From NCBI GenBank assembly GCA_024103515.1, contig JAGGIK010000012.1, positions 1-45,889 of the forward strand: 45,889 nt of DNA, in the 5' to 3' direction. Made by a program: the position numbers and the translations under genes. The notes under the pieces were generated by a model. It made no database searches. It had not been told where the DNA came from and saw nothing but the letters and a program-made list of their open reading frames with translations. The stretch is from Snodgrassella sp. (lineage in GTDB: Bacteria > Pseudomonadota > Gammaproteobacteria > Burkholderiales > Neisseriaceae). The first letter of the stretch is position 1. Each line of letters begins with the position of its first letter. Below, piece after piece: positions 5,079-40,105 of this stretch.

Positions 5079-5206
5079 TTATCCACAAATTTATCCACAG
5101 AAAATTAATCTTAATAACGGTAAATTAATTCATTAAACATTTTATTTACAGTAATTTATACAATACATATTATTTAGTAAAACTTAACTCTGTAATTTTA
5201 TCCACA
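5079..5206. promoter_or_regulatory. Cluster of three exact DnaA boxes
   Basis: TTATCCACA, the high-affinity DnaA box, occurs exactly at 5079-5087, 5091-5099 and 5198-5206, all on the plus strand, in the AT-rich gap between the HIT gene and dnaJ. The first two are 12 bp apart in start position, close to one helical turn. The gap (5072-5434) holds no gene that I can see. The cluster could regulate a neighbour or titrate DnaA. Confidence 0.55.
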
Positions 5207-10828: not shown

Positions 10829-11869
10829 GTTCCAAAACCCATATTTTCTATCTTACATAGGTCTCAAATGCCCATCTCTGCTTGATAAAAATTAAAACAA
10901 AACTTTAATTTAAAAAAATCTTCAAAATACTGTATAAATACCATCATCAAATCGAATAAATTATTCACAGCATGATTTAAATCACTGTTACATTATCTTC
11001 ACCAGATCTGCTGGTGAATAAATGAATTCGATAATGCTAATAAAATTCTCCTCTTATATTTTTAATTAAATCAGCTAGTTAATCTGATATCAGCACTCGT
11101 TTCTAAACAAAATTAGCTACATGTTTTTTTATTTGTACGCTTTTTTATACTTTATTCTCGATCAGTTTAACTTCGAAAAAACAGCTTAAATTGATTTATA
11201 ATATCCTTCACAAAACATCAGCTAACCGTTCCAAAAAACGACGCACATCAAACTCAATAATATTCAGTCTTGACTGTGACAATTTAAAGACAAATCCATT
11301 TTTCTCGTTGTATCAGGAAATTAAGATAGTTACAATTTTCATGATTAAAGTTATTTTTCTAATTATTCCCTGCTATATTTTTATCATTGCTCTCTTTTTT
11401 GTTTAGTGATAACAATTAGCCAATAAAATGAAATAAGCATATTATTGACATGAAATTTTTCTGATTCAGGTTCATCCAAATAAGGAAAAAAATTAAACCA
11501 GGCCTGCACTTAGAATTAAGCTAACCATGGTTGCCAAAATTTACGGTACTGCCCAAATTAATGCTATTTCCGATTAATAGGTAGTAGACAATAACCGTTA
11601 AAATTTCTACCAAATCAGTATTTTCTTTATCAGAAAAAATAAATTTTAATTGGTTTCAAGACAATATTGGACCTCACGATAATTAAATCCACATCCCCTT
11701 TTTATTAGGTAATTAACTAAATTTGTGAAATCAGGATTTAATAATTTATTAAATTTTTTGCTAATGTGACAAAATAATAATCATCTTAAAGCCAATCTTT
11801 TATAATGATTGATATTTTTAATTAAAAATTCTGTTCAAATTTATACATCTAAATCTTTTTAGTATTTTA
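10829..11869. other. AT-rich spacer, nothing recognised
   Basis: About 1.04 kb with no supported gene. A 71-codon open frame at 11191-11406 is hydrophobic at its end but has no ribosome-binding site or family resemblance. One more TTATTCACA lies at 10961-10969. C exceeds G on the plus strand. Confidence 0.5.
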
Positions 11870-15955: not shown

Positions 15956-17100
15956 TAAATTAACAATTAATTATGAGTTTAAGTTCGTTCAGCACAAAGC
16001 TGAAATCATCAGTGGAAAATTATACTCCTATTCGCTTCTAATCATACCAATTTAGAATAAAATCACGAATACACAGACGTAGCTAAGGATGTCTGATTGC
16101 TCCTGATATATCCGTCTTTTTTCATCCCGACTATGCTAATTAGCTTATGCGCATATTAATCGGCTCCGGCAAAAAGAGCTGATTTTAAAACTTCATTATT
16201 CATTTTATCCTGTTGCAATTCGTTAACAGAAAATTCATCAGCTTTTGTATTTTTGTTTTGTAATGATGATCAGCACTCCTTGTGTAGATTACAGATTTAT
16301 TTCATTAGCTGATATTGCCCAACTTATCGATTGCTAAAACATTTAATTTTCATGAATTATCTAAAAACACATTATTCAAAGCATAACATATATAAACAGG
16401 CTGTCTATATACATATATGAAAAATGATTATTTATCCACATCATCATCAAATCGGTATCAACTAAAATATATAGTACAACTGTTAATCCAATTGTGGATA
16501 ACTTTGTCATCAACACAATGATTTTTGGGCAACGACAAAAAATATCATCTTATGGGTGTCGTTATCCACATTTAAAGATATGAGTTCAAAATTATTTTTT
16601 CTCTACAGAAATAGAACCCATACGTATTTTAAGCTAATCAACCGCCAATCAGTTTTCTTGAATACATTTATTCCATCCTCTGACAGGCCGCCAACCACCA
16701 TTAAACAGATAAAACCCATAGAAGCATCCAATTACCTCCTGAAATCATATACAAAGATTAATAGATGTTTAACTATCAGAGTTAAGAAACAATATCCAAC
16801 AGAGACTAAATTAATTAACGACAGAAATTGAATGATATAAGGTAAAGATGATGTAAAGCATATTATTTCATCAATATAAATTTAATCAATAATTAAAAAA
16901 AATCATTGTCTTACAGCATTATTCAGCTATTACATATTAAAATAATGACAAGACCGCTTATATTCGGGCAGATTCAACAATAAAATTAAGTAATACCTAA
17001 TTTTTAAAACTAAAAAAAAACTTCCTGCTTCATAACTGTATTTTAGTTGACAACATCTTTATAAGCTTAATAGATGATGCGCTGAAAATTGCTAACTCAT
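15956..17100. other. Gene-poor spacer
   Basis: About 1.14 kb without a supported gene. A 91-codon open frame at 16556-16831 has no ribosome-binding site or recognisable domain and I treat it as chance. In 16,021-16,380 I count about 46 G and 67 C on the plus strand. The notable content is the DnaA-box group listed separately. Confidence 0.5.
16432..16570. promoter_or_regulatory. Three exact DnaA boxes
   Basis: TTATCCACA is exact at 16432-16440 (+), 16493-16501 (-) and 16562-16570 (+), so about 60-70 bp apart in non-coding AT-rich DNA. This could be an outlying part of an origin region or a DnaA-binding control site. Confidence 0.5.
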
Positions 17101-17460
17101 CTATTCAAGCCATATTTTTTCTACATCAATCAAAGCTCGACGCGATAAAGCCAAATTTGCACGACTATTATCAAGTACGGAATATAAAAACAAACTCCCC
17201 ATTTTTTTCAAAGGTCTGATCAGATGGTAATGCTGACCAAGAGTAATCAGGATATCCTCAATTTCATCATTGAGTTCAAGCATTTGCATAGTTTTAATTT
17301 TCGAACGGATCACTTCTGTACTGCTAACTGCAGCCACTTCCAAATCAAGCTTGATGGTACTACTCCCCGCCATCAGCATCCCACTTTCATAATCAATTAC
17401 CGCAGCGGCTAATGCTCCTTCGACATTAAGTAATTGTGCCACAACTGCTTGATAATCCAT
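17101..17460 (-). CDS. Roadblock/LC7-like small protein
   Basis: This 119-residue protein reads MDYQAVVAQLLNVEGALAAAVIDYESGMLMAG and looks like the Roadblock/LC7 fold (alternating helix-strand pattern with a GALAAAVxDxxSGxxL strand pair), a family associated with small-GTPase switches. It has no signal peptide or membrane segment. The fold call is from pattern only. The cellular role is unknown to me. It lies 115 bp downstream of lpxC on the same strand, with its own likely promoter in the AT-rich gap. Confidence 0.65.
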   Translation of the reverse strand: MDYQAVVAQLLNVEGALAAAVIDYESGMLMAGSSTIKLDLEVAAVSSTEVIRSKIKTMQMLELNDEIEDILITLGQHYHLIRPLKKMGSLFLYSVLDNSRANLALSRRALIDVEKIWLE

Positions 17461-17575: not shown

Positions 17576-18484
17576 TTATGGTAAGGTATGAAATGCCTGA
17601 GGTAAATATTTATTGTTTGGAAAAGTTATCCATTCATATGACTGAGGATCTGCTAATAACTTGCGTAATAATTCATTATTGATGGCATGACCCGATTTAT
17701 GCCCGGCAAAAGAACCAATAATAGGATGGCCAACAATATATAGATCACCAATGGCATCAAGAATTTTATGCCGTACAAATTCGTCCGGATAGCGTAACAC
17801 ATCCTGATTCAGTACATCCAAATCATCAATCACGATCGCATTACTTAAATTGCCACCCAAACCTAGGTTATGGCTACGCATCAATTCAACCTCTTGCATA
17901 AAACCGAACGTACGTGCTCGGGAAATTTCCTCAACATAAGATTGATTAGCAAAATCAATCTGAAAGGTCTGATTGCTGCGATTAAAAACTGGATGATCAA
18001 AATCAATGGTTAAAGTCACCTTAAACCCGTCATAAGGGGTAAATTCAACCCATTTATCCCCTTCTTGTACTGATACCTTCTTTTTAATCCGCAAAAATCG
18101 TTTTTCAGCTGGCAGATCAACAATTCCGGCATCCTGCAGTAAATAAATAAAAGGCAAACTGGAGCCATCCATAATCGGAATTTCCGGTGCATTCAGTTCC
18201 ACCAGAACATCATCAATTCCATAAGCAGCAAATGCCGACATAATGTGTTCAATTGTACCTATCCTGATGCCATCAGCTGTTACTACCGTAGATGAAAGAC
18301 GTGTGTCATTAATCAGATCAGGTGTGAGTCGAATAATTCGACTTTGTTCACCGTGCAGATCAGTTCGACGAAACATAATGCCACTATCGGCTATAGCTGG
18401 ATAAAGTCCAAGTCGTACCCGCTCACCGGAATGGAGTCCTACGCCGGTAACATTAATCGTTTTCGCCAACGTACGCTGTAGCAT
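17576..18484 (-). CDS. lpxC: UDP-3-O-acyl-N-acetylglucosamine deacetylase LpxC
   Basis: This 302-residue zinc enzyme catalyses the committed step of lipid A synthesis. Zinc ligands are visible as H80 (IGTIEHIMSA), H239 and D243 (RHKILDAIGD); the catalytic base is E79 and the general-acid histidine is H266 in GHKSGHAINN. The N-terminus MLQRTLAKTINVTGVGLHSG is canonical. Length is normal (about 305). It confirms a Gram-negative host. Here it is not next to ftsZ but stands between trmO and the Roadblock-like gene. Confidence 0.97.
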   Translation of the reverse strand: MLQRTLAKTINVTGVGLHSGERVRLGLYPAIADSGIMFRRTDLHGEQSRIIRLTPDLINDTRLSSTVVTADGIRIGTIEHIMSAFAAYGIDDVLVELNAPEIPIMDGSSLPFIYLLQDAGIVDLPAEKRFLRIKKKVSVQEGDKWVEFTPYDGFKVTLTIDFDHPVFNRSNQTFQIDFANQSYVEEISRARTFGFMQEVELMRSHNLGLGGNLSNAIVIDDLDVLNQDVLRYPDEFVRHKILDAIGDLYIVGHPIIGSFAGHKSGHAINNELLRKLLADPQSYEWITFPNNKYLPQAFHTLP

Positions 18485-18609
18485 ATTTGCGTCCTTTTCA
18501 TCTGATCAACTAAATAGCAGTAGCTATATTAGCGAATTTACATGGTAAAAGTAATTAATTTTGACTAATTGGGGATAAATTAGCTTTATAACGATTGCGT
18601 TGTGACAAA

Positions 18610-18734
18610 TTATTCACAGCAACTCCAATATCTAACAAAATTATCCACATAATCCACAAATCATTCCTACGTTGAAATTTGAAGTTATTAAGGCATAACT
18701 AAATGAAAAATAGTGTTTTTACAAGTTATCCACC
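18610..18734. promoter_or_regulatory. DnaA-box group between lpxC and trmO
   Basis: Plus-strand sites: TTATTCACA (18610-18618), exact TTATCCACA (18641-18649), TAATCCACA (18650-18658, one mismatch) and TTATCCACC (18726-18734, one mismatch). The gap 18485-18797 holds no gene. All four point the same way, as DnaA boxes in origins often do. This is the left flank of the candidate origin. Confidence 0.55.
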
Positions 18735-18797
18735 GAATGTATGGCTTCGTCTTTGTCTTCATCCATTTATTATTAATTCTATTATTAGAAAAACAAC

Positions 18798-19517
18798 TCA
18801 AACTTCTATGTGCCTACGCAACTGAGTAACAATCACAACGACACCATTAACCAAAAATAAAATATCCCAATCTCCTAAATTCATCACATACGTTTTATCG
18901 CTATGCTGTTGATGAGCCGGACGAGGATCCTGAGATAAACTTTGATTAACCAATTGATAAAATTCAGATTTAATACCAAACCACTTCATCTGCTGTTGAG
19001 CCTCCTCAGACCACTGAACTTTTAAAAGCGTTCTGAGTTGTGCATAACTACCGGCAGCATTTGCTTTAGCCTCAACAAAAGGTAAATAAGGTTTAATATC
19101 GATAACCGGTGTCTGATCAAGTAAATCAATTCCACTGACATATATAGAAACCTTATCAGTTATAGATATTTGCTCCAGCTTCAACAGAGATAAACCTAAA
19201 TGATTGGGCCGATGCGGGCTACGAGTAGCAAAAACCCCTTTTTTTTCTTTACCGCCAAGTTTTGGTGGCCGGATTAAAGGTAACCACCCATCTTTTATGG
19301 CCGCGTGAAAAATAAATTGAACCCAAATAAAATCATATTCTTCCAAGCCACGCACACAATCTGCTTTGAATTGGCTACATAAATCAATCCGCGCATGAGC
19401 CGCAGGTACCAGACCAGGTTGGCGGGCAAGACCAAATTTTTGTTTATAGGGAGAATAGACGTGGCCAATTGGTTGAATCAACCATTCCTGTTTGTCATTA
19501 TTAGAAAATTTACACAT
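18798..19517 (-). CDS. trmO: tRNA m6t6A37 methyltransferase TrmO (TsaA/YaeB)
   Basis: This 239-residue protein has the single-sheeted TrmO fold signatures: IGHVYSPYKQKFGLARQPGLV near the N-terminus, LEEYDFIWVQFIFH, and the SAM-binding motif FATRSPHRPNHLGLSLLKL (relatives: RSPFRPNPIGLS). TrmO uses S-adenosylmethionine to N6-methylate t6A37 in tRNA-Thr. Length matches the E. coli protein (about 235). Its upstream side faces the 2.8-kb AT-rich gene-free block. Confidence 0.9.
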   Translation of the reverse strand: MCKFSNNDKQEWLIQPIGHVYSPYKQKFGLARQPGLVPAAHARIDLCSQFKADCVRGLEEYDFIWVQFIFHAAIKDGWLPLIRPPKLGGKEKKGVFATRSPHRPNHLGLSLLKLEQISITDKVSIYVSGIDLLDQTPVIDIKPYLPFVEAKANAAGSYAQLRTLLKVQWSEEAQQQMKWFGIKSEFYQLVNQSLSQDPRPAHQQHSDKTYVMNLGDWDILFLVNGVVVIVTQLRRHIEV

Positions 19518-22317
19518 AAAGCAAAGTAATCAGTTCAAAGATACTATTGTACGATATTACCCACAGTTGATCTGTAGATAAAATGTGAATAACAATCTAA
19601 GTAAATAGATTCTAGCGCTATTGACCGACTTAATTTAATGTCACCCGATAAAGATGACGTTGTTAATGAGCTGACTATATTGGGTACAGTACTGATATTT
19701 AATTACTAAAGTCCGGAATTAATCTTTGTATAACCACGTGCTTGGTTTTTTCATTGGCCATCTGATCACTTTTTTATATAAAAACAATAAAATTCATTTG
19801 TTTCAGCGACGGAAGTGACTTTAAATCTATAAGCTCAGTTGTGGATAAAAATTAACTATTGTTTAATGTACAAATTTGAAAGGGTTGTTCTGATGATCTG
19901 AAATAAATTGAATTAAATTAATGGAAAAATCTTTAGAAGCAAGCGGTAACAACTTAAATAGTTGATAATATTGAATATAAAAATAAAAAGCTTAAATTAA
20001 TGCTTGCAGTTTCGATCTATCTTAAGCAAAATCAAATTTGACAACCAAAAAACTTATTTGACCGTATATCTGTTCATAATTGTACTATCACTAATGCTTA
20101 TTATGTTTTAATATATAAAATAATATTTACCCAAGTGAATTAACTGTAATTAAGTTAAACCGTGATCTATAAAATAGAGCGATAATCAGGATAATTTTAT
20201 TCAGACGTTTTTATATATGTTTATCATGACATAGATAAAAATATGATCAGAGTGATAAAAAACATGGTTTATATAATTGTTTTTTCTTACAGCTAAAAGC
20301 GTCAAGTTAATCGAAGAATATATTGTCTAAATGCAGTTATTTTATAAAAAAATGTGAAATTGATGAAATATCAAATATTTAATCTGTAAAAATAACTCAT
20401 CACAGATAATGAGCAAACATGAAAAATAAGCAGGTATTAATAATTGAGGAAATAAACTAATCATTACATATTTCAACAGCGATATTATCCTTCTGAAAAT
20501 CAGAATTGAAATGACAAAATTGCTAAGAATAATATTACTGAAGGTATGTTTATACCTGAGTACCATTCTAATGGTGTTAAAGATTACTTTGCGTAATCAT
20601 CGGTTCTAGGTCAATAAAATACAGTTGAGAATCCATATTATTGAGGATTCTGAGTTTAATCAAGAAAACTATTTTGATCGTGACAATAAAATTCCATGGC
20701 AAACGTATCTGAATAATACCATAGAACAGTTTATGATAATGTTATCCACAATCCCAAGAACCAATTGTTGATTAAATGAAGGTCGATAAAAATTTACAAT
20801 ACGCAGTATTTATTCAGCAGAAGAGGGGACACACAATTTTCTAACCAATATACAAGCAAAATAGATAAAATCCTAAGAAGAAAAAATGATCAATAATACC
20901 GATAATGACAGAATTATTGACAAAAATGCGCTATTGCTAAGTCTGAAAACAGATAATAAAAGAAATTTTTTCTATTGAGCACAATGGCTATTTAAACCCA
21001 GAAAATAATTAAATTGCTGCTTTAATACCAAGTATTCAGTCAAAATACAAGCTGCTAACATTATTTTATAATATTATCCACAGTGAGTATGTGTATTAAC
21101 TGTGGGTAAGATATTGACTGAGTAAATGACTGCATTCCTTTTGTGCGACTGAAATAAGGTCAAAGTAAAAAACATGATTTATTAGTACAGAAATAATTTT
21201 GGTGTAAAAATGCTGAATAATCAGTGATAAAACTAAACAATCCTAACATAAAATTTTAAGCCTTTCATTACACAGTTCTATATTTATCTTTTTAGGATAA
21301 ATGAGGAATAAAAAGATTAAAGGCATCGAAAGAGAATTTGTCTCAAAGCGAGCTTGTGGATAAAAATGATAAGAAAAAGCGCCATAACTGGCAATAAAAT
21401 ATACGTCTTGATCGTATTAATCAGCAACTTCAAGTATCCCGTACATAGGTTGTAAGTGAATAAAACATACTAATTTTTAAATTAAAATCAAATAAAAAAT
21501 TTATTGACCCTAATCATAGAGATACCTATTTATTTTTAGTATGAATAATTTGATTTTCTTTTAAAAATAAAACTTTTTAGCAAATTTCGATTACAGCATG
21601 ACATAAAATAACTGTGAAGATTTTATCGTTTTAACAATTGGAATTAATTTAACATTAAAACTTATAATCTAAGCTAGCATTGACTGAATTTAGATAAGCA
21701 GAATCTATAACACATCGATAACTTTATCTGATAAGACGATAAAAATATAATTGTTTCTTATTTTTTATTAATCACAAAGTAAATTAAGAACAAAGAGAAC
21801 GTTTATGAATCCTTGGTTTAAAATTTTAATTAAAAACACTTTCACTATAACTGGTCTTTATAATATCATCCACTTATGATGTAAATATAGCATTCACTCA
21901 CACCTGAAAATTAAATAGCCAGTAAAAGTATTACGCATTGTGGATGACAATCATAGCGATTGATTAGTTAAAATGACAGAAAATAAATTTTTATTTTCCC
22001 AATGCGCGAGATTTAAAGTACCAAAGTAGCTGAAAAAACTGCCTAATATTAATTAAATTACTGTTTTTTTATAAAATTTTATCTTATCCATAAGTTCACA
22101 TCGGCGTTAAATCGCCTGTCTCATTCATAAAGTATGACACACATTACAGCAGCTTACAGCAAGTTCTGTTAATATTAAAAATTAGTTGAAATATTTACTG
22201 GTTATTTTATTAATATAAATAACTGATTTTAAATTATTTACCGATTAGTTATCGGCAAACTACTTACTTATTGTCGCTTTGATAAGCAGATAATCATTAA
22301 TCTAAAGGTGAGATTAG
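19518..22317. other. Candidate chromosomal replication origin (oriC) region
   Basis: This 2.8-kb stretch has no supported gene and is about 28% G+C (hand count over 19,501-21,480, roughly 293 G and 256 C). DnaA-box matches: TTATTCACA at 19584-19592 (-), and exact TTATCCACA at 19840-19848 (-), 20742-20750 (+), 21074-21082 (+) and 21355-21363 (-). One-mismatch copies are at 19557-19565 and 21101-21109. Plus-strand GC skew is C-biased to the left and G-biased to the right. Flanking genes point outward: trmO and lpxC to the left, etfBA to the right. Two exact parS sites lie to the right. dnaA is not adjacent. An origin is an inference; a decayed gene desert is the alternative. Confidence 0.65.
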
Positions 22318-23067
22318 ATGAAAGTAATGGTAGCAGTAAAGCGTGTTGTGGATTACAACGTTAAAGTGCGTGTCAAGGCTGACCAATCAGATGTGGATAT
22401 TGGCAACGTAAAAATGTCGATGAATCCGTTTGATGAAATTGCCGTCGAAGAAGCTGTACGGTTAAAAGAAGCCGGTAAGGCTAGTGAGGTTATTGTGGTT
22501 TCATTGGGAGTAAAACAGTGCGAGGAAACCCTACGAACGGCCTTAGCAATGGGGGCAGACAGAGCCATCCATGTTGAAACAAATGAACAGCTGCAGCCAC
22601 TGGCCGTGGCTAAACTGCTAAAAGCTATTGCTAAACAGGAACAACCACAATTATTTTTGTTGGGTAAACAAGCAATTGATGATGATGCCAACCAGACTGC
22701 ACAAATGCTGGCTGCTCTTTTGTCTGCGCCGCAAGGAACATGTGTCAGCAAAGTCAACCTGAGTGCTGATGAAGTTATTGTAACCCGTGAAATTGACGGT
22801 GGTCAGGAACAGCTTGGATTGAAATTACCTGCTGTAATTAGTGTTGATTTACGATTAAACGAACCGCGTTACATCAAATTACCGAATATCATGCAAGCCA
22901 AGAAAAAGCCTCTGGAGAAAAAAACCGTGGCGGAACTGGGAGTGGATATTTGCTCACATCTGATTCAGATAAGAGTAACTGAGCCGAAAGCGCGTGCGGC
23001 TGGTATTAAAGTAGCCGATGTGGCCGAATTGGTGGCCAGATTGAAAACCGAAGCCAAAGTGATTTAA
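22318..23067 (+). CDS. etfB: Electron transfer flavoprotein subunit beta
   Basis: This 249-residue protein starts [20 protein letters not shown] and contains [19 protein letters not shown], both hallmarks of EtfB, which binds AMP and docks to partner dehydrogenases. With EtfA it carries electrons from acyl-CoA and other flavin dehydrogenases to ETF-ubiquinone oxidoreductase. AAAGGTGAG precedes the ATG. etfA follows after 10 bp in the same operon. It is the first gene to the right of the candidate origin. Confidence 0.95.
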
Positions 23068-23077
23068 GGAGATAGCC

Positions 23078-24022
23078 ATGTCTGTATTGATAATTGCTGA
23101 ACATCAGCAGCAACAACTGGATGAAGCTACCCTGCATGCTGTAACAGCTGCTGCCAAGCTTGGTGAAGTTGATATTCTGGTAGCAGGGTACCATATTAGT
23201 GAAGTAGCTGTTCAGGCTCAACAAATTGCAGGAGTAAGAAAAGTATTACTTGCTGATACTGCTGAATATGCTAATGAGTTAGCTGAGTCTATGGCTCCAT
23301 TAGTGGCCAGTCTGGCCAAAAAATACAGCCATATATTGGCTGCTGCTTCCAATGCCGGTAAAAATCTACTGCCTCGTGTTGCTGCTTTACTGGATTGTGC
23401 ACCGATATCTGAAGTGACCGAAATCATCGATTCACAAACATTTGTTCATCCGATTTATGCTGGAAATGTATTACAGACTGTGCGCAGTGAACAAACACAA
23501 CATGTTCTTACTATACGCAGCACAGCGTTTGCACCGGCAGTAATTAATGACAATCAAGCTGTTGTGGAAGTTGTACCATGCCCTGCACCACAAAATTTAA
23601 GTCGATTTATTGATCGTACGTTGACGCATTCAGACCATCCAGAACTGACGACTGCAAAAACGGTTGTCAGTGGGGGGAGGGGATTGGGCAGTGCAGAAAA
23701 CTTTGCAGCCTTACTCAATCCATTAGCTGATGTACTTAATGCGGCAGTTGGTGCTTCACGGGCAGCTGTGGATGCTGATTATATCCAAAATGAATATCAA
23801 GTAGGGCAAACTGGTAAAGTAGTCGCTCCTGAACTTTATATTGCTGTGGGCATATCCGGTGCAATCCAGCATCTGGCAGGAATGAAAGACAGTAAAGTTA
23901 TTGTCGCGATCAATAAAGATGCTGATGCGCCCATTTTCAATATCGCTGATTATGGTCTAGTTGCCGATCTCAATACGGCTATTCCTGAATTGGTCCAACA
24001 GCTTAAAGCAGTGTTAGATTAA
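23078..24022 (+). CDS. etfA: Electron transfer flavoprotein subunit alpha
   Basis: This 314-residue protein has an N-terminal nucleotide-binding-like domain and the conserved C-terminal FAD-binding domain: [14 protein letters not shown] (about 197-210), [31 protein letters not shown] and [20 protein letters not shown]. Length is normal (about 310). It forms a heterodimer with EtfB and holds the single FAD. GGAG lies before the ATG, 10 bp after etfB. An exact parS site begins 12 bp after its stop codon. Confidence 0.96.
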
Positions 24023-24033
24023 TGAATAAATAA

Positions 24034-24049
24034 TGTTTCACGTGAAACA
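24034..24049. promoter_or_regulatory. parS centromere site (ParB binding)
   Basis: The sequence is TGTTTCACGTGAAACA, identical to the conserved bacterial parS consensus. The palindrome extends one base each side, making an 18-bp perfect inverted repeat (24033-24050). It is in the 223-bp gap between etfA and ltaE. A run of six T follows some 10 nt later, so it could also help end the etfBA transcript. parS sites cluster near replication origins. Confidence 0.9.
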
Positions 24050-25969: not shown

Positions 25970-27241
25970 ATGAAATTACTGGTTATTGGTAGTGGCGGAC
26001 GTGAGCATGCATTGGCTTGGAAACTGGCTCAATCTGATAAAGTGGAAATTGTTTTTGTTGCACCGGGTAATGCTGGTACAGCAGCTGAAAAAAAACTTTG
26101 TAACATCAATTTGAGTGATCATCAACAACTTATCCAGTTTTGTATTGAGCAAGAAATCACATTTACTCTTGTTGGTCCGGAGGCACCTCTGGCTGCCGGT
26201 ATTGTGGATGACTTTACTGCAGCTGGATTAGCAATATTCGGTCCCAGTCAGTATTGTGCCCAGCTAGAAAGTTCCAAGGATTTTGCCAAGGCATTTATGC
26301 ACCAGCACAGTATTCCCACTGCTGCTTATGCCACCTTCACTGATGCTACTGCCGCACATCAATATGTTGCTCAAAAAGGTGCGCCAATCGTGATCAAAGC
26401 TGATGGTTTGGCTGCTGGTAAGGGCGTCACTGTCGCCATGACCCTTGATGAAGCACATCAAGCGATTGACAGCATGTTAATGGATAACAGCATGGGCAGT
26501 GCTGGTGCTCGGGTCGTGATTGAAGATTATCTGCAAGGTGAAGAAGCCAGCTTTATTGTTTTGGTTGATGGCGAACATGTACTGCCCATGGCCAGCAGTC
26601 AGGATCACAAACGTCTACTAGATAATGATAAAGGACCCAATACCGGTGGGATGGGAGCTTATTCACCGGCACCGGCGGTTACACCGGCAGTACATCAGCG
26701 GGTGATGGAAGAAATTATTTTGCCCGTTGTCCGGGGAATGCAAGCCGCAGGTCATCCATATCGAGGTTTTCTGTACGCCGGCTTAATGATAGATGCTACT
26801 GGTGCCCCTTATACCATTGAATTTAATTGTCGCTTTGGCGATCCAGAAACCCAACCAATTATGTGTCGGTTGCAAACAGATTTGGTAGATTTGATCGTGG
26901 CGGCGCTAGCGGGTAAACTTGATACCACTCAAGCCGTTTGGTCGGAGGAAACGGCAGTAGGTGTGGTATTAGCAGCAGCTGGTTATCCACAGATTTCGCG
27001 CCGAGGCGATAGTATTGAGGGTTTAGAGGCCGCCAATCAAATTGGTAAAGTTTTTCATGCCGGCACTACTAACCATCCAGACAAAAAATTAATTGTATCA
27101 GGAGGCCGGGTGCTGTGTGTTGTGGGGATGGGCAAAAATGTGGCCGATGCACAAAAACAAGCATATTTGGCGTTGGCTCCAATTCATTTTAAAGGCATGC
27201 AATACCGACATGATATTGCTGCTAAGGCACTAAATAAATAG
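25970..27241 (+). CDS. purD: Phosphoribosylamine-glycine ligase
   Basis: This 423-residue ATP-grasp enzyme joins phosphoribosylamine and glycine in step two of purine synthesis. It begins MKLLVIGSGGREHALAWKLA, then TLVGPEAPLAAGIVDDF, the ATP-grasp lysine region PIVIKADGLAAGKGVTVA, SSQDHKRLLDNDKGPNTGGMGAYSPAP, and the metal-binding EFNCRFGDPETQP. Length is normal. A GGGTAGG ribosome-binding site precedes the ATG. It converges on tenA with a 10-bp gap. An exact TTATCCACA falls inside the coding sequence at 26983-26991. Confidence 0.97.
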   Translation: MKLLVIGSGGREHALAWKLAQSDKVEIVFVAPGNAGTAAEKKLCNINLSDHQQLIQFCIEQEITFTLVGPEAPLAAGIVDDFTAAGLAIFGPSQYCAQLESSKDFAKAFMHQHSIPTAAYATFTDATAAHQYVAQKGAPIVIKADGLAAGKGVTVAMTLDEAHQAIDSMLMDNSMGSAGARVVIEDYLQGEEASFIVLVDGEHVLPMASSQDHKRLLDNDKGPNTGGMGAYSPAPAVTPAVHQRVMEEIILPVVRGMQAAGHPYRGFLYAGLMIDATGAPYTIEFNCRFGDPETQPIMCRLQTDLVDLIVAALAGKLDTTQAVWSEETAVGVVLAAAGYPQISRRGDSIEGLEAANQIGKVFHAGTTNHPDKKLIVSGGRVLCVVGMGKNVADAQKQAYLALAPIHFKGMQYRHDIAAKALNK

Positions 27242-27251
27242 TGTTGATAAA

Positions 27252-27929
27252 TTAAAGCGGCCAGCTGGACATTTGCCAGCAGTTATGCCATAACTGCTTT
27301 TCCAGTTTGGCCGCAGTTAGAAAACTGTGTAGCATAGAAGTACGAATCTCGGTATTGTTGTTTGTGGCGAGGCGATCGGCAATATTCATCGCAATGGCAC
27401 CATCCCGACAATATTCCGGACAATTATAGGTCTCAATCCAGCGCCGATAAGGATTACTGTGGATATCTACCCGAGCAAGTAAATGTTCACCGACTTGTTG
27501 ATAAATATAAAAACAGGCTAAAGTGCTGGCTATAGCAACAGGCAGAGGTTCCGTGATCAGCTGTTGATACAGAAAAGCTGTGTATAATAGGCAGCTCGGG
27601 ATCTGTTGAGCTGCAGTCAGATTATTTTGTAATAAATCCTGTTGCATACATTGCTCAGCTTTAATAGTCTCTGAGCTGAATCGCTGGAATTGTTCAGCAT
27701 CACTGGCTAAGGTGCACTTGTCGGCAATCATCTGCATGATCCGACTGTAATGACGTAAATATAAAACATCCTGTTGTAAATAAAAGCGAAATTTATCTGG
27801 CGCAAGCGAACCATCACCCAAAGCTTTTATAAACGGTAACTGCTTAATCTGCGCTAAAATAGGTTTCACTTGCTGTTGGGCTTCATGGCTCCAAGCTGAT
27901 GATGGGAATGAGAGAAACTTGCTATCCAT
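27252..27929 (-). CDS. tenA: Aminopyrimidine aminohydrolase / thiaminase II (TenA)
   Basis: This 225-residue all-helical protein belongs to the TenA family, which salvages thiamine breakdown products by hydrolysing aminomethylpyrimidine to HMP. Key residues are visible: D54 (FYLQQDVLYL), catalytic C139 (STLACFYIYQQVGEHL) and E210 (LTAAKLEKQLW). Length is normal. No other thiamine gene is nearby apart from the distant ThiF-like gene, so a salvage role is likely. It is convergent with purD. Confidence 0.9.
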   Translation of the reverse strand: MDSKFLSFPSSAWSHEAQQQVKPILAQIKQLPFIKALGDGSLAPDKFRFYLQQDVLYLRHYSRIMQMIADKCTLASDAEQFQRFSSETIKAEQCMQQDLLQNNLTAAQQIPSCLLYTAFLYQQLITEPLPVAIASTLACFYIYQQVGEHLLARVDIHSNPYRRWIETYNCPEYCRDGAIAMNIADRLATNNNTEIRTSMLHSFLTAAKLEKQLWHNCWQMSSWPL

Positions 27930-28799
27930 TATCCAAATAACTTTATCAATGATGAAAAATGAGATATTAACATTGTCAGTATGACCTTTTAGAAAAATAG
28001 GAATAATAAAAAGTACTCTTTTGATCAGGCAGGCGTTGTTGGCGTATTTTGTGGATAATGTCTTAATCGTTTTTTCTTCTTATTAAATTAGCCTGAGTGA
28101 TATCTAAAGACAATGCGATTTTTAGTGGATAAATATTGCTGGTTTTCTTTGGTTGTCGTCATCACATCATGTAAGTGTATTTCAATACTGATGATCAACT
28201 GAACCAACTCTGATGGACGAGAATTACAGTTGCTGGCTATTTGGTTTAATACATTTTTATACGATATCCAGTAGATTAAGCCAGGAGAGAAAATATGTTA
28301 ACAATTTTTCATAATCTTAATGGCTAAAAAATACCCACATATACCGACAACTTGAAATTATTAGGCAGTAATATTAAGGAATAGCATGGATATGCATTTA
28401 AAAGATTGATAAGAATAAATGAAGAACTTATCCACAGCGATAATAGTAGTATGTTTTAAGTAATCAAGCAGAATTATAATAAAATCACTGATTGTGGCAA
28501 AAAAATAATCCCATTGATCCGGCTGACTGCTCTAATAAAAATTTTGTTCAATTGTTCTATATTTAGCTATATGAATTTTTATCCACAATGGTTTATTATT
28601 ATCATGGGGTAATTTGTTGAGCGGTTATAAATACCAATTCCCATGGAAACGATTACATGCAGAAAAAAATAGTTATTGGTAACAAGATTATAATCAATTA
28701 GCACCAATTGAAAAAATAGCTGCAGTGATGAAAACATCAAATTAGGTATAAGAATACGTCGGGTTATTTATTTTTTTAAATCAATATACTTCTTTAAAA
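27930..28799. other. AT-rich spacer with DnaA boxes
   Basis: There is no supported gene. Exact TTATCCACA sites are at 28050-28058 (-), 28428-28436 (+) and 28579-28587 (+). The plus strand is mildly G-rich relative to C. The tenA promoter must lie at the left end. Confidence 0.5.
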
Positions 28800-29896: not shown

Positions 29897-30706
29897 ATGG
29901 AATTAATAAATAAATTAGTAGATGTATTTCCAACTCGTCCTTTAAAGGTCATGAAGCTAAAACAAGAAGGCCGATTACATCAGACAAGAAGAATATTTGC
30001 GGTAATAATTTGCCTTGTATTAGCACTGTATATAGCGCTGAAAGCTTATCCTGGATTAGTTGATGATTATAAAATATCACGTAATCCGGTTGTGGTTGAC
30101 AATCATATAGAAGGCAAATGTCGTGTTAAATATATGTTTAACTATTGTTCAGTCAAAATTACCACTGATGATGGGGACGTCATTGAAAGAAATTATACTT
30201 TTATTGGGGGTAAACGTGGAAATTATCATGTTGTGGCTGTAGCTTCTGCCGATGATCCATCATTAGTTACAATCGATTTAGCTATTAATAATATGCTGAC
30301 TCAATTTGTGGTTATTACCGCGCTTATTCTATTGTTGATGTGGGCGATATGGATGAATTTGGTCTACTTCTTAAGAACACGTAAATCGATAAAAGTTCTC
30401 GATGAAATGAATGGGCAAAGATTAAAGCCAGTAATAGTGCCGATTAAATTAAAATCTTATGGTCCAATAACGACCGTTTTATATCATGCCAACAATATAC
30501 AAGGTATAGATGATAAATATGTAGCCCACTTTCATGATAAATCGGGCGGCGGACCAATCATTATAGGAGAATTGATTAAGGATAAGGGTAATGCTTTGGC
30601 CGTAATCGGGCAAAACGGTTCGGTTCCTATTATTCTCGATCAAGATTTAACGCGCTGTGATTTCACCGATAATGAAATTCAAGCATTAAAAGAAGTACTC
30701 TCTTAA
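29897..30706 (+). CDS. Two-helix membrane protein of unknown function
   Basis: I do not recognise this 269-residue protein. It has two clear membrane helices (about 33-50 and 134-158). By the positive-inside rule the N-terminus (rich in K/R before helix 1) and the C-terminal domain are cytoplasmic and residues 51-133 are periplasmic. The loop has two cysteines (C75, C84) that could form a disulfide. The C-terminal 110 residues contain a Gly-rich stretch HDKSGGGPIIIGELIKDKG. Upstream GAGTG is a modest ribosome-binding site. The gene stands alone between non-coding blocks, with its own terminator. It is intact in a decaying neighbourhood, which suggests it is under selection. Confidence 0.75.
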   Translation: MELINKLVDVFPTRPLKVMKLKQEGRLHQTRRIFAVIICLVLALYIALKAYPGLVDDYKISRNPVVVDNHIEGKCRVKYMFNYCSVKITTDDGDVIERNYTFIGGKRGNYHVVAVASADDPSLVTIDLAINNMLTQFVVITALILLLMWAIWMNLVYFLRTRKSIKVLDEMNGQRLKPVIVPIKLKSYGPITTVLYHANNIQGIDDKYVAHFHDKSGGGPIIIGELIKDKGNALAVIGQNGSVPIILDQDLTRCDFTDNEIQALKEVLS

Positions 30707-30794: not shown

Positions 30795-33433
30795 ACTTTT
30801 CTAGATGGCATTTTGGTTTTTGCTGAAAAATTCCTATTAAATAAACAGACTATACGCTATTTTTGTTTTTTCTTTTTAAATAGCTATCTTGTAAAAAACC
30901 TAATTAATATTCTAGTAAGCTTAATGTTGTGTGTTCACATTTTCCGCTGCATAAATAACGTTATTATGATTTGCTGGAAAATTCGATATTCGTTACCTTA
31001 TGTTTTCTAATCTATTGATTAGCTCAACGAAGTAAATCAATAGCCACAATAAATTCATTCAGGTATTGTCGGTCTCATTATTATCATAACCAGTAGAGCA
31101 GCTGATATTCAGAGTGTTGTCGTCGGACTAAGGTCGGGTATTTAGCTGAACCATGCAGATGGTTTGATTTGCACAAAATATTGGTTTATACACAGCTGAT
31201 CCAGTGTATACGAGAAAGATTGATTGTCTTTAATTACCATAAAGTCCTTTACAATCAAGCTTTATTGGCCTTAATCAAATCATAAACTCGACTATTGCTC
31301 CAAAATTATCAACAATTTTATCCACAGGATCTAAGTGGATTAACATGGGTCCGTTTATCTACAATAAATTTCTCATTGTAGATAAAAGAGCAGTCTGCTT
31401 TAACAAGACAAAAAGACTTATGCTTGTGGATAATATTGAGTTTCCACGCAATGGATGGTTTTAAAATTGAGAAGCACTCAATTTTTGCGTGTTGATTTAA
31501 TAAATGAATACCACAAGCACCAAAGCTGAGCCGTTGTTGGATGTTTTGGTGTTTTGCAATAGACAGGTATTTTGGTGGTGGGGTATGCAAGGCTAAGGTG
31601 GTTCTGTTTATGAACAATTTAATACAGATTGTAGCGGAGAATATAAATTAACCTAAGTTTGTTTGTCGGTAATATTAATATGAACTGAGTGTAATTATTA
31701 TAAAATATGTGAGTACGGTGATTTGGCTTGTTGTCACTTTCAGCAGGAAGCAAGCTGTGGCTAATACATATGAATATTAAATATTTTAAGCTCGAAGAAT
31801 GATAAGCACGGTTATTAAATTTATATACTCTCCTGATTCTCACTTTTTATACCTATAAGCATGATTTAGCTGTGTGGTGGACTTATTGCGATAGATGCAG
31901 CAGTTACAATATGGTAGAAAGAGGGCTGGCATTAACCAAATATAATTATTGTGTCTAAGTTTAGGTATAAAGGTGAATCGTATATATTGTGAGCGGTTTA
32001 TTAAAATTGTGGATATTTATGTGCTATGGAATTTCTGATAGTACGCCTAATCATAATATCTGGAAAGTGACATTCATACAGGTGATCTTTGGGTTCTTAC
32101 TCTGCAAGCTATTACTGTTGTTAAGCTAGTTGATCTGATTAATGTCAATAGATAAGTAAAATGGCTGATCAAGTTGATTTAGATCTGTATGACGTAGCTG
32201 TTGTCAGAGTAGTCGGTGGTCGTTGCGTTTGTGATGATTATTACACTTACCGGTGCTTGGTCTTAACAATGGGGCTCTTTGCCACATATTCATAGCAAGA
32301 ATGGGGGTGGGTATAAAATCGTCTAAGTAAAATGGGTTTAGTGCGCAATTTAAGGATAAACTAATACTTTTACACCATTAGATTGCTGTGATGAGGGATG
32401 GGTACGGTCGGAAGATAAATGATAGCAACTGATAATGCGCACGCTGGATGTTGTCCAGTATATAATCTGTCGCGTCAATAGTCTATTGCCAAGCGCAAAC
32501 AGAAAAATAAGTGCAGTAAGAATGATTTATGGTTGGCGCAATTATATTCTGGGTAGTCATCATATGCCATTATTATTGTTATTTACGAATTAAATATGTT
32601 GATGATACAAATTTCGTCAAATTCTATGTTGATCTGAGACAAAGCTTCGAACCTACTATAAATTTTAAAGCCTAATAATTAATTATAGTAAATATGCTGC
32701 ATATGAAGGCGATTTAAATTTGCTTTGTCTGGCTAACTCGTTAAAAATGGTTCAGCAGCATAAAGCATATTTTCTGGCCAATAATATGCCAGTTCCCTGA
32801 CTTAGTATGCTAATGCTGTGGTTGCACATCAATCGTGTAATGATCAGAATATTTAAAAATGCTTAAAATGGTTTTAGTTATTTACACAAATGTTGATTTG
32901 CTTGGGAATTATGGGTAGCGTTATCAACACATTGATGGTGAGCAAAGTATGTAGAGATTGTTCAAAATAATTTATCAACATGATACCTATCTGGTGAATG
33001 GACGGTTGCGGGCGCTCAAGTCTCTGTCTAAGATAGGTGCGGACAATCAGGTAAATACTGCCATTCATTGCGCTGATGATTTGACTGAACATTGTCAGAA
33101 ATCATCAGCAAGTGTTGTAGGAACGTGTTGCTATGCCGACTTTTGTGTCGGTCAGTGCAAATGCGGTGTACTGGCATCCATAGCGTATTGGTTCATTATT
33201 TTTTATCAGGCCATTTGCTGGCTGTGTCATCCGTTGATTGTTACTGCCAAACTGAATGCTAACCAAACTGAATGCTAAATAGGGCAATTATACCGGTAAT
33301 CATGCTGTTATCGGGTGTGTTGCGGTTGCATACATTCATGCAGTATGCTGTTAATACTGCCGCTTAATTTGTATATCAGTGGCAGGCCTGTTTTGTTAGC
33401 GAATGTAGCAGTCAAATCATGGTGCTAAAAATT
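30795..33433. other. 2.6-kb gene-poor spacer with DnaA boxes
   Basis: I find no gene with family resemblance. Open frames of 70-106 codons exist on both strands but look like chance. DnaA-box matches: TTATACACA at 31186-31194, and exact TTATCCACA at 31318-31326 (+) and 31425-31433 (-). In four sampled lines (31,081-31,200, 31,381-31,440, 32,281-32,340 and 32,401-32,460) I count about 78 G and 42 C, a strong G bias. A 15-bp segment (CAAACTGAATGCTAA) is repeated in tandem near 33248-33278. Confidence 0.5.
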
Positions 33434-34876: not shown

Positions 34877-36250
34877 ATGAAAAACAATCCAATCATTGTT
34901 GCGGTAGCCACTGCACCCGGCAGGGGGGGGGTGGGGGTGGTCCGTCTTTCTGGTCAGAATTTACTGCCGTTAGCGCAAATTCTGTCTGGAGGGAAAACCC
35001 CAAAGCCGCGGGTAGCCATGTACACCGATTTTACCGATGATCAAGACCGGGTGATCGATAATGGTTTGTTGCTGTATTTTGCCGCACCAGCTAGTTTTAC
35101 GGGTGAAGATGTGATTGAGTTACAAGGGCATGGTGGACCGGTAGTCATGCAGATGTTGTTACAACGCTGTGTGCAATTGGGTGCCCGTCTAGCTGAACCC
35201 GGTGAATTTACTAAACGTGCTTTTTTGAATAATAAACTTGACCTGGCTCAGGCAGAAAGTGTAGCTGATCTTATTGATGCATCCAGTCAGTCAGCCGCAC
35301 GGATGGCGGTGCGCAGCCTGAAAGGTGCTTTTTCCAATGAGATTCACCAACTGGTTGACGAATTAATTACGTTACGTATGCTGGTTGAAGCAACATTAGA
35401 TTTTCCAGAAGAAGACATTGATTTCCTGCAAGCTGCTGATGCCGCAGGTAAATTACAACATTTGTGGGCAGCCGTTGCTCAAGTGCTGGTGCATGCAGAA
35501 CAAGGTGTTCTGTTACGTGAAGGGATGAAAGTAGTGCTGGTGGGGGCGCCTAATGTTGGCAAATCTAGCTTGCTTAATGCGCTGGCCGGCGATGAGGTAG
35601 CGATTGTCACTGATATTGCAGGAACCACGCGTGATACAGTGCGGGAACAGATTACTTTGGATGGTGTGCCGGTACACATTATTGATACTGCAGGTTTGCG
35701 ACAAACGGAAGATGTGGTGGAACGAATCGGTATTGAGCGCAGTCAGCAGGCTGTACAGCAAGCCGATGTTGCTTTGATTTTGGTTGATCAGCGCGAAGGA
35801 CTGAATGAAACCACTGCCAAGATTCTCACGCAGTTGCCACCGAGCTTACATAAAATTGAAGTGCATAATAAAATAGATCTGACCGGCGAAGTGGCCGCCA
35901 GTGTTTCACGTGAAACAGGGCAGCTACAGGCCTTTACCACTGCGGAAACAGTGATTGCATTATCGGCAAAAAATGGTACTGGACTGGATTTATTACGGCA
36001 GGCATTGTTGCAGCAGGTGGGTTGGCAGGGAGAAAGTGAAGGCTTGTTTTTGGCTCGCACGCGGCATATTCAGGCTTTGCAACAGGCGCAACAAGAATTG
36101 GCGTATGCCGGTCAGTGCCAGCATAATCAGATTGAATTATTTGCCGAACATTTGCGCTTGGCGCAGAATGCATTAAATGAAATCACTGGCGAATTTAGTG
36201 CAGATGATTTGCTGGGGGTGATTTTCAGCCGTTTTTGTATTGGTAAATAG
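34877..36250 (+). CDS. mnmE: tRNA modification GTPase MnmE (TrmE)
   Basis: This 457-residue GTPase works with MnmG to add the 5-(carboxymethyl)aminomethyl group to U34 of certain tRNAs. Domains: N-terminal tetrahydrofolate-binding domain (1-118; [46 protein letters not shown]), helical domain, inserted G domain with G1 GAPNVGKS (223-230), G3 DTAG (270-273) and G4 NKID, and the C-terminal FCIGK with the conserved Cys454. Length is normal. Two oddities: a run of nine G in codons 16-19, and an exact parS palindrome in the coding sequence. mnmE often lies near the origin with mnmG, rnpA and yidC, but those are not next to it here. Confidence 0.97.
34923..34931 (+). repeat. G9 homopolymer in the mnmE coding sequence
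   Basis: Nine consecutive G fall in codons 16-19 of mnmE (Arg-Gly-Gly-Val, within the conserved GRGGVG), followed after one T by five more G. Runs this long slip easily, and a change of one base would truncate MnmE near its N-terminus. Confidence 0.9.
35902..35917. promoter_or_regulatory. parS centromere site inside mnmE
   Basis: A second exact TGTTTCACGTGAAACA lies within mnmE, encoding the VSRET segment near residues 342-347 of the G domain, between G4 and the C-terminal region. An exact 16-bp palindrome is very unlikely by chance, so it is probably a real ParB site kept compatible with the protein sequence. Confidence 0.88.
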
Positions 36251-39105: not shown

Positions 39106-40105
39106 ATTTCTCTAGTATGATAACTGGATTGAAAATCGATTACAGCGCTGACTGTTAAATTAATATCCGGATCATAAAAAACTGGACAGTTTTCTAGTCA
39201 ATAATCCTTTAAGCAAAAAATTATCTGATGCATTAATAAACTATGGGCCAGTCAGATAATCAACAAAATCAAGAAAGAAATAGCTGGGCGATAAGCGTGA
39301 AAAATATTTGCTTATTGCCACTGATTTGCTTACCCCTTTGCCGTTAGCAACATGCAGCAACCCCTACCTATTTTAAGTATGACTGACCCAACATTGTGTA
39401 GAGAATTAAGCTAAGATGCTTCGATCACTTCTAAATCCTATTTAACTGAATATGGATAAAAATGGATTGAGTGTTCTTTGTGCCGTTTCTCTCCAAAGAT
39501 AAATATTTACATATTAAATATTAGATTAACTTTGTAATAAATTAAAATGGTTTTGTTTAAAACATGTTTGTTGGGTAGTTGATAATTATCTGTATAAGTT
39601 TTATCCTGAATTCAAAATATAAAATTACAAAACTCAAAAAATAATTAAGATGAAAACATTCTAGGTTTAAAAACTCTTGGTTTCAATGACTTTATCTTCC
39701 TAAAAAATGTTCATCCCATGTTTATCACTGTAATAGATTGAAGCGGCTAGCGCTCGTTATCTTGTGCGACTTAAGTATTATATTTACCAATTTTTCTGTT
39801 TTTCAACCTGATCTTATTGATGGTATTGTTGCTGTTTTTACCGACTTAATAAGTCTCGTAGACGGCAGAATATCACGTCGTATGAGGGTGGAATTGAAGT
39901 GTATATTATTAATTGTAATCTTAAATCGCTAAATCGTTCTAAAGATTATCTTTAACGAGCAAACAATAGTAACCACTAAGCATTACAATAACCAATTATA
40001 AATAAATAAAAATAAAAGATTTTTCTTAGATATTAGCCAATTATTTAATGACAGGAGTTGTAGGAAAACGTCGCATTGTTAACACTTCGTAATTAAAATA
40101 TTCCC
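39106..40105. other. Spacer with a possible gene fossil
   Basis: There is no intact gene. On the plus strand 39780-39955 reads as coherent protein in two successive frames (LIDGIVAVFTDLISLVD, then NITSYEGGIEVYIINCNLKS and onward to TAA at 39953-39955). This suggests the end of a frameshifted gene that I cannot name. The 14-mer CTTTAACGAGCAAA at its end (39950-39963) recurs inverted at 45363-45376. Confidence 0.4.

Follow-up and report, generated by a model that had tools for sequence, protein, structure and literature searches.

In the commonest bacterial layout, the chromosomal origin of replication (oriC) lies beside dnaA. Where, then, does replication begin in Snodgrassella, in which an origin-like locus is not next to that gene? 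The stretch analysed here (the window, 45,889 nucleotides) is one whole contig of a Snodgrassella assembly of 2,049,305 bases in 108 contigs that is 86% complete; by EtfB, the closest named relative among the matches listed is Snodgrassella communis LMG 28360 (83% identity). A preliminary description of this DNA had proposed an origin without adjacent dnaA at 18.6–22.3 kb. The separation from dnaA was borne out: in the same assembly, dnaA lies at 10 kb on another contig (C11), where the nearest TTATCCACA is at 40,057, and in two complete Snodgrassella genomes it is 307 kb (G007) and 337 kb (G005) from the locus. The features of the locus and its surroundings are as follows, in window coordinates.

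17576–18484, minus strand: lpxC (TIGR00325).
18485–18797: gap between lpxC and trmO, 313 bases, the proposed oriC core, matched at 18606–18793 (127 bits) by the profile R1 described below.
18610–18618, plus strand: DnaA box TTATTCACA.
18641–18658, plus strand: abutting co-oriented DnaA boxes TTATCCACA and TAATCCACA (the second with one mismatch), 31 bases past the 18610 box.
18726–18734, plus strand: DnaA box TTATCCACC (one mismatch), adjoining the AT-rich element.
18740–18792, plus strand: near-invariant pyrimidine- and AT-rich element, the proposed unwinding element, with possibly trio-like repeats.
18798–19517, minus strand: trmO (TIGR00104), a native spacer between two box groups.
19518–22317: AT-rich non-coding block, 2,800 bases, with boxes at 19584, 19840, 20742, 21074 and 21355.
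19557–19592: second conserved box group, upstream of trmO, with TTACCCACA (plus strand, 19557), TTATCTACA (minus strand, 19573) and TTATTCACA (minus strand, 19584).
22318–24022, plus strand: etfB and etfA (families matched below curated cut-offs; named by best description).
24034–24049: parS site, exact.
26983–28587: outlying group of DnaA boxes at 26983, 27579, 28050, 28428 and 28579.
35902–35917: parS site, exact, within mnmE (34877–36250).

The gene directions are as first described, with lpxC and trmO pointing left and etfB, etfA, an ltaE-like gene (its family also matched below the curated cut-off) and purD pointing right, and both parS sites that had been noted, at 24034 and 35902, are exact. 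A parS site lies 1.70–1.74 kb past the start of etfB in 13 of 13 Snodgrassella genomes (12 exact, and one mismatch in G013) as well as in G014, G015 and G016. Searches of the window for RNA genes found no tRNA and nothing in Rfam that reached the gathering score. Pfam gave no match at E 1e-4 for two reading frames, 17101–17460 and 29897–30706; the former has lpxC as its neighbour in 11 of the 12 Snodgrassella loci compared with the window, as well as in G015.

The cluster of DnaA boxes at the locus exceeds chance at the scales of window, interval and assembly. The window holds 25 TTATNCACA sites where 3.9 would be expected, a number that none of 100 shuffles reached; the interval 18600–22317 holds 8 against 0.32 and the block at 19518–22317 holds 5 against 0.24 (0 of 1,000 shuffles as high in either case); across the assembly, 18 of the 61 copies of TTATCCACA fall on the window contig, which represents 2.2% of the bases, and the reversed pattern, taken as a control, has 30 matches. 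The seven TTATNCACA sites previously named (18610, 18641, 19584, 19840, 20742, 21074 and 21355) were all recovered, together with an eighth at 19039, within trmO. The contig has other clusters of boxes too, which counts against the origin reading; these further groups, absent from the earlier account and mostly non-coding, lie at 5079–5206, 16432–16570, 26983–28587 and 31186–31433. Four boxes in G005, at 6.5–7.3 kb, are on the same side as the 26983–28587 group. Within 25 kb of the putative origin lie 17 of the 53 copies of TTATCCACA in G005 and 10 of the 72 in G007, with 0 and 6 copies, respectively, at 25–50 kb; such enrichment may hold DnaA near the origin. A milder excess, of about 1.7- to 1.9-fold, occurs at 200–400 kb (16 copies against 8.4 in G005, 21 against 12.6 in G007), in a zone that contains dnaA.

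Which part of the interval is shared among relatives? The proposed locus holds, but not the exact spot: what relatives keep is the gap between lpxC and trmO, together with a little of the sequence upstream of trmO. Judged by alignment, the conserved part of the putative origin is thus this gap and not the 2.8-kb block. The gap can be aligned across Snodgrassella, and less closely with G015, G016 and G018; 59 of 207 columns of the core alignment are invariant in 13 Snodgrassella sequences, and the order is a box, 31 bases, a box with an abutting near-box, ~70 bases, and a box that leads into TATGGCTTCGTCTTTGTCTTCATC and AT-rich DNA. The place of the 18610 box is taken by TTATNCACA or a one-mismatch box in 12 of the 13 (the exception being G013), and the columns of the 18641–18658 pair are mostly invariant. 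A minus-strand box or one-mismatch box recurs at an offset of 1078–1110 in 12 of 13 Snodgrassella loci (not in G012) and in G015, giving two box groups with trmO between them, possibly a bipartite-origin layout. In all 13 Snodgrassella loci, including the window, and in G015, trmO occupies the same place between lpxC and etfB, in a comparison in which the G004 stretch is split over two contigs and G012 lpxC matches in pieces; on this constancy, the idea of trmO as an insertion that split the origin was rejected.

The arrangement of the core invites comparison with two characterized origins. In the available text of PMC10721633, the basal unwinding system of the Bacillus subtilis oriC has DnaA boxes in one orientation and, after them, the DNA that unwinds; the Snodgrassella core likewise has co-oriented boxes ahead of a proposed unwinding element. 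Its two adjacent co-oriented boxes, at 18641 and 18650 (the second with one mismatch), lie ~80 bases from the AT-rich element, and the single 18726 box adjoins it. The complement of 18740–18792, read by eye, begins 3'-GAA GCA GAA ACA GAA- and continues with AAT/GAT repeats in an uncertain register; unlike those of B. subtilis, these putative trios are not clean 3'-GAT-5' repeats. The core match in G135 (L359) contains CTATTACTACTA, that is, 3'-GAT AAT GAT GAT-5'. The B. subtilis system adjoins dnaA. The Escherichia coli oriC is not beside dnaA, is flanked by gidA and mioC, and has co-oriented boxes and an AT-rich unwinding element; an oriC parted from dnaA is therefore a known layout. The Snodgrassella core resembles the E. 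coli origin in this separation, in its co-oriented boxes and in its AT-rich element, and differs in its flanking genes and in being poor in GATC (one site).

Asymmetry of base composition points to the same place. When GC skew in the window is taken in 1-kb bins, 13 of the 14 between 5 and 19 kb are minus and 22 of the 26 between 19 and 45 kb are plus, but the five at 0–5 kb are plus as well; cumulative skew reaches its minimum at 19415. Skew in this genome was read from the window contig, and that of relatives from sampled stretches. A check for a skew minimum elsewhere, in this sampled form, favoured the locus: both complete Snodgrassella genomes switch from minus to plus at lpxC/etfB and flip back roughly opposite. 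In G005 the switch falls at the ends of the record, 30 bases upstream of lpxC, and the opposite flip halfway round the chromosome, at 1.17–1.30 Mb. Two samples, at 0.26 and 0.78 Mb, are slightly minus, and three inside the minus arm, at 1.95, 2.08 and 2.21 Mb, around dnaA (2.19 Mb), are plus. The reversed skew at 1.95–2.21 Mb (L128–L130) perhaps records a recent inversion. In G007 skew is minus at 0.29–1.49 Mb, near zero at 0.17 Mb and plus from 1.508 Mb onwards except in two weakly minus samples, at 1.85 and 1.97 Mb; it changes back somewhere within 0.05–0.29 Mb, the exact antipode being 0.36 Mb. G015, of another genus, flips at 587–588 kb, between etfB and lpxC, and back at 1.89–2.03 Mb, with one deviating sample at 2.32 Mb. 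Altogether, six of nine sampled genomes show the minus-to-plus change at the locus or core match (G005, G007, G015, G088, G028 and, weakly, G062); in G028, samples are minus to 1.55 Mb and plus from 1.75 Mb, with the core match, beside ylqF, in between. In G135 the change lies between 2.90 and 3.17 Mb, and the core match, at 3.178 Mb, is near rather than at it; samples of G014 and G016 are mixed, and their global skew is unusable. We propose that the switch arises from forks leaving the origin in both directions.

To follow the core beyond the genus, a sequence-only profile model (R1; match, E 0.01 or better) built from 13 Snodgrassella sequences was used, because a strict pattern (box, 4–45 bases, TCATC, TTTAT), which hit 7 of the 29 loci scanned and gave 8 matches in all, missed relatives. 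In Snodgrassella, R1 matches once per genome, 106–128 bases from lpxC, in 13 of 14 genomes, which are the training set (there is no match in G006, 60% complete); the core is thus conserved and single-copy in these chromosomes. That 18606–18793 is the sole match in its own assembly is independent evidence; its 127-bit score is not, the window being one of the training sequences. Matches in other genera were held out from training. Family-wide, 52 of 83 genomes, in 9 of 12 genera, match, and 31 do not, including 23 of the 71 that are clean and at least 90% complete, which counts against the origin reading. Of the 52, 45 carry lpxC on the same contig, and in all 45 the best match lies within 11.2 kb of it; six have lpxC on another contig (three of these matches are weak, E 0.002–0.005) and one has no lpxC match. 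In single-contig family genomes (n = 20), the distance is at most 7.7 kb. Separately, a 500-base stretch of G020 (contig C3, 375329–375828, in L194) holds twelve TTATCCACA, eleven of them within 235 bases upstream of lpxC, a far denser array than in Snodgrassella.

Beyond the family, 150 genomes drawn evenly from the order gave 13 matches, 11 of which are in other families. Five of these 11 lie 70–184 bases behind the DnaA C-terminal domain, where an oriC is customarily found (G027, G037, G117, G120 and G157; E 5e-6 to 0.006), four, all from the single family f5, are beside ylqF and away from dnaA, and the remaining two are in G174, with nine TTATNCACA around the match, and G190. Because R1 is rich in DnaA boxes, the remote, weak matches may reflect such boxes and not common descent. 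The gene mnmE is 16 kb from the core in the window and 2.7–2.9 kb from dnaA in G027 and G117; near the core here and near dnaA there, it suggests that dnaA may be the mover.

Snodgrassella has one core copy per genome, and some relatives have more. In G062, two inverted copies flank lpxC between gnd and gapA (L266, 9703–9879 on the minus strand and 11456–11632 on the plus strand), and G058, G080 and G082 have a partial, inverted second match on the other side of lpxC. Two matches share one orientation in G090, the contig of G098 that bears an inverted pair, spaced by 5 kb, lacks lpxC, and a second copy appears within 4 kb in G015 and G018 when the region is searched alone. Where inverted copies flank lpxC, a single origin might have two melting sites. 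Taken across the order, the core could be one inherited module, situated behind dnaA in several families, beside ylqF in another and by lpxC in Neisseriaceae, with oriC and dnaA having parted at least once while the sequence was kept, and present twice in some Neisseriaceae (G062; weaker or partial in G058, G080, G082, G015 and G018); we hold this tentatively, at a little under an even chance.

Could the origin nevertheless lie in the block between trmO and etfB, as first described, the boxes between lpxC and trmO being accessory or a regulatory site of lpxC? The block is as large and AT-rich as had been stated, with a G+C content of 27.0% rather than ~28%; it contains five TTATNCACA, the cumulative skew minimum lies nearer its edge, and it harbors the least stable 50-mer of the interval (99.9th percentile of instability). 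The weakest 50-mer of the core reaches the 93.9th percentile; less stable DNA exists in the region, and this counts against the core as an origin. However, the block shrinks to 0.27 kb in G012 from 2.8 kb in the window, and only its trmO side aligns, poorly past ~100 of the 250 bases compared, whereas the conserved, single-copy part is the core, with its matches behind dnaA in other families. We therefore regard an origin in the block as unlikely. That the boxes upstream of lpxC form a DnaA-dependent lpxC control site, with the origin elsewhere, would suit a core that abuts lpxC in Snodgrassella, but the skew switch sits at the core, and the core stands 4.1 kb from lpxC in G016, beside etfB, and 2.3 kb away in G088, beside a gamma-glutamyltransferase gene and still at the switch; this explanation is highly improbable.

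Slightly less probable still is an origin at dnaA, with the skew switch at lpxC as a rearrangement scar. It would restore the usual bacterial arrangement, and it can draw on the reversed-skew samples around dnaA in G005 and on the five TTATCCACA found 6–20 kb from dnaA in each of G005 and G007, where a uniform spread would give about 0.8 and 1.3, with none closer than 6 kb. Yet no flip was seen at dnaA in the sampled skew of G007 (dnaA at 1.20 Mb, between minus samples), G015 (base 1255) or G028 (1.28 Mb, among minus samples), and parS stays with etfA. A box cluster next to dnaA, the other place to look, was not found: there is no TTATNCACA in the 3.2 kb around dnaA in this genome or in 12 other Snodgrassella, and on this ground an origin at dnaA was rejected.

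It is thus very probable, as far as sequence can indicate, that oriC lies at 18.5–19.6 kb, where DnaA would open the AT-rich element beside the co-oriented boxes, those behind trmO and in the block being secondary. DnaA, encoded ~300 kb away in complete relatives, would bind the co-oriented boxes at 18610, 18641/18650 and 18726, be led onto the adjoining element at 18740–18792 and open it so that helicase can be loaded; a second, looser binding region would be formed by the boxes of the 2.8-kb block and those behind trmO. Forks would depart both ways, and ParB on the nearby parS sites would segregate the new origins. DnaA binding, melting, the start of synthesis and ParB action at this locus are what we infer from this arrangement.

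How much of this is new? The G005 record (2,527,978 bases) ends 30 bases upstream of lpxC, with base 1 at the same locus and the core match at 76–267. The record start and the window share the same core; what the record makes visible is a choice of coordinates, and because base 1 is at lpxC, its depositors probably placed the origin there. Origin databases presumably list this locus as well. The preliminary description's suggestion that such an origin was undescribed for the lineage is therefore doubtful: the place itself is probably not news, and the shared, relocated core may be. In the parts of the open-licence PMC literature searched, we found no description of the core or of its recurrence across the family and at origins next to dnaA, and no open-licence PMC paper joining the DnaA-trio with Neisseria. 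Higher coverage near the origin than near the terminus has been reported for bee gut bacteria, the passages available naming no position (PMC6347622, PMC10704631), and an Ori-Finder prediction for Laribacter hongkongensis, in the available text of a paper that compares this species with Neisseria and Chromobacterium, has eight boxes (PMC3135505), a box-rich predicted oriC like the Snodgrassella locus.

These results provide a candidate origin core of 190 bases in a bee symbiont and, more widely, in the family to which Neisseria belongs. A record that starts at dnaA, as in G015, G062 and G088, is no marker of the origin in this family, and knowing the correct origin is important when growth rates are estimated from read depth or replicating plasmids are built. 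The separation of oriC and dnaA would offer a natural test of what keeps the pair together elsewhere.
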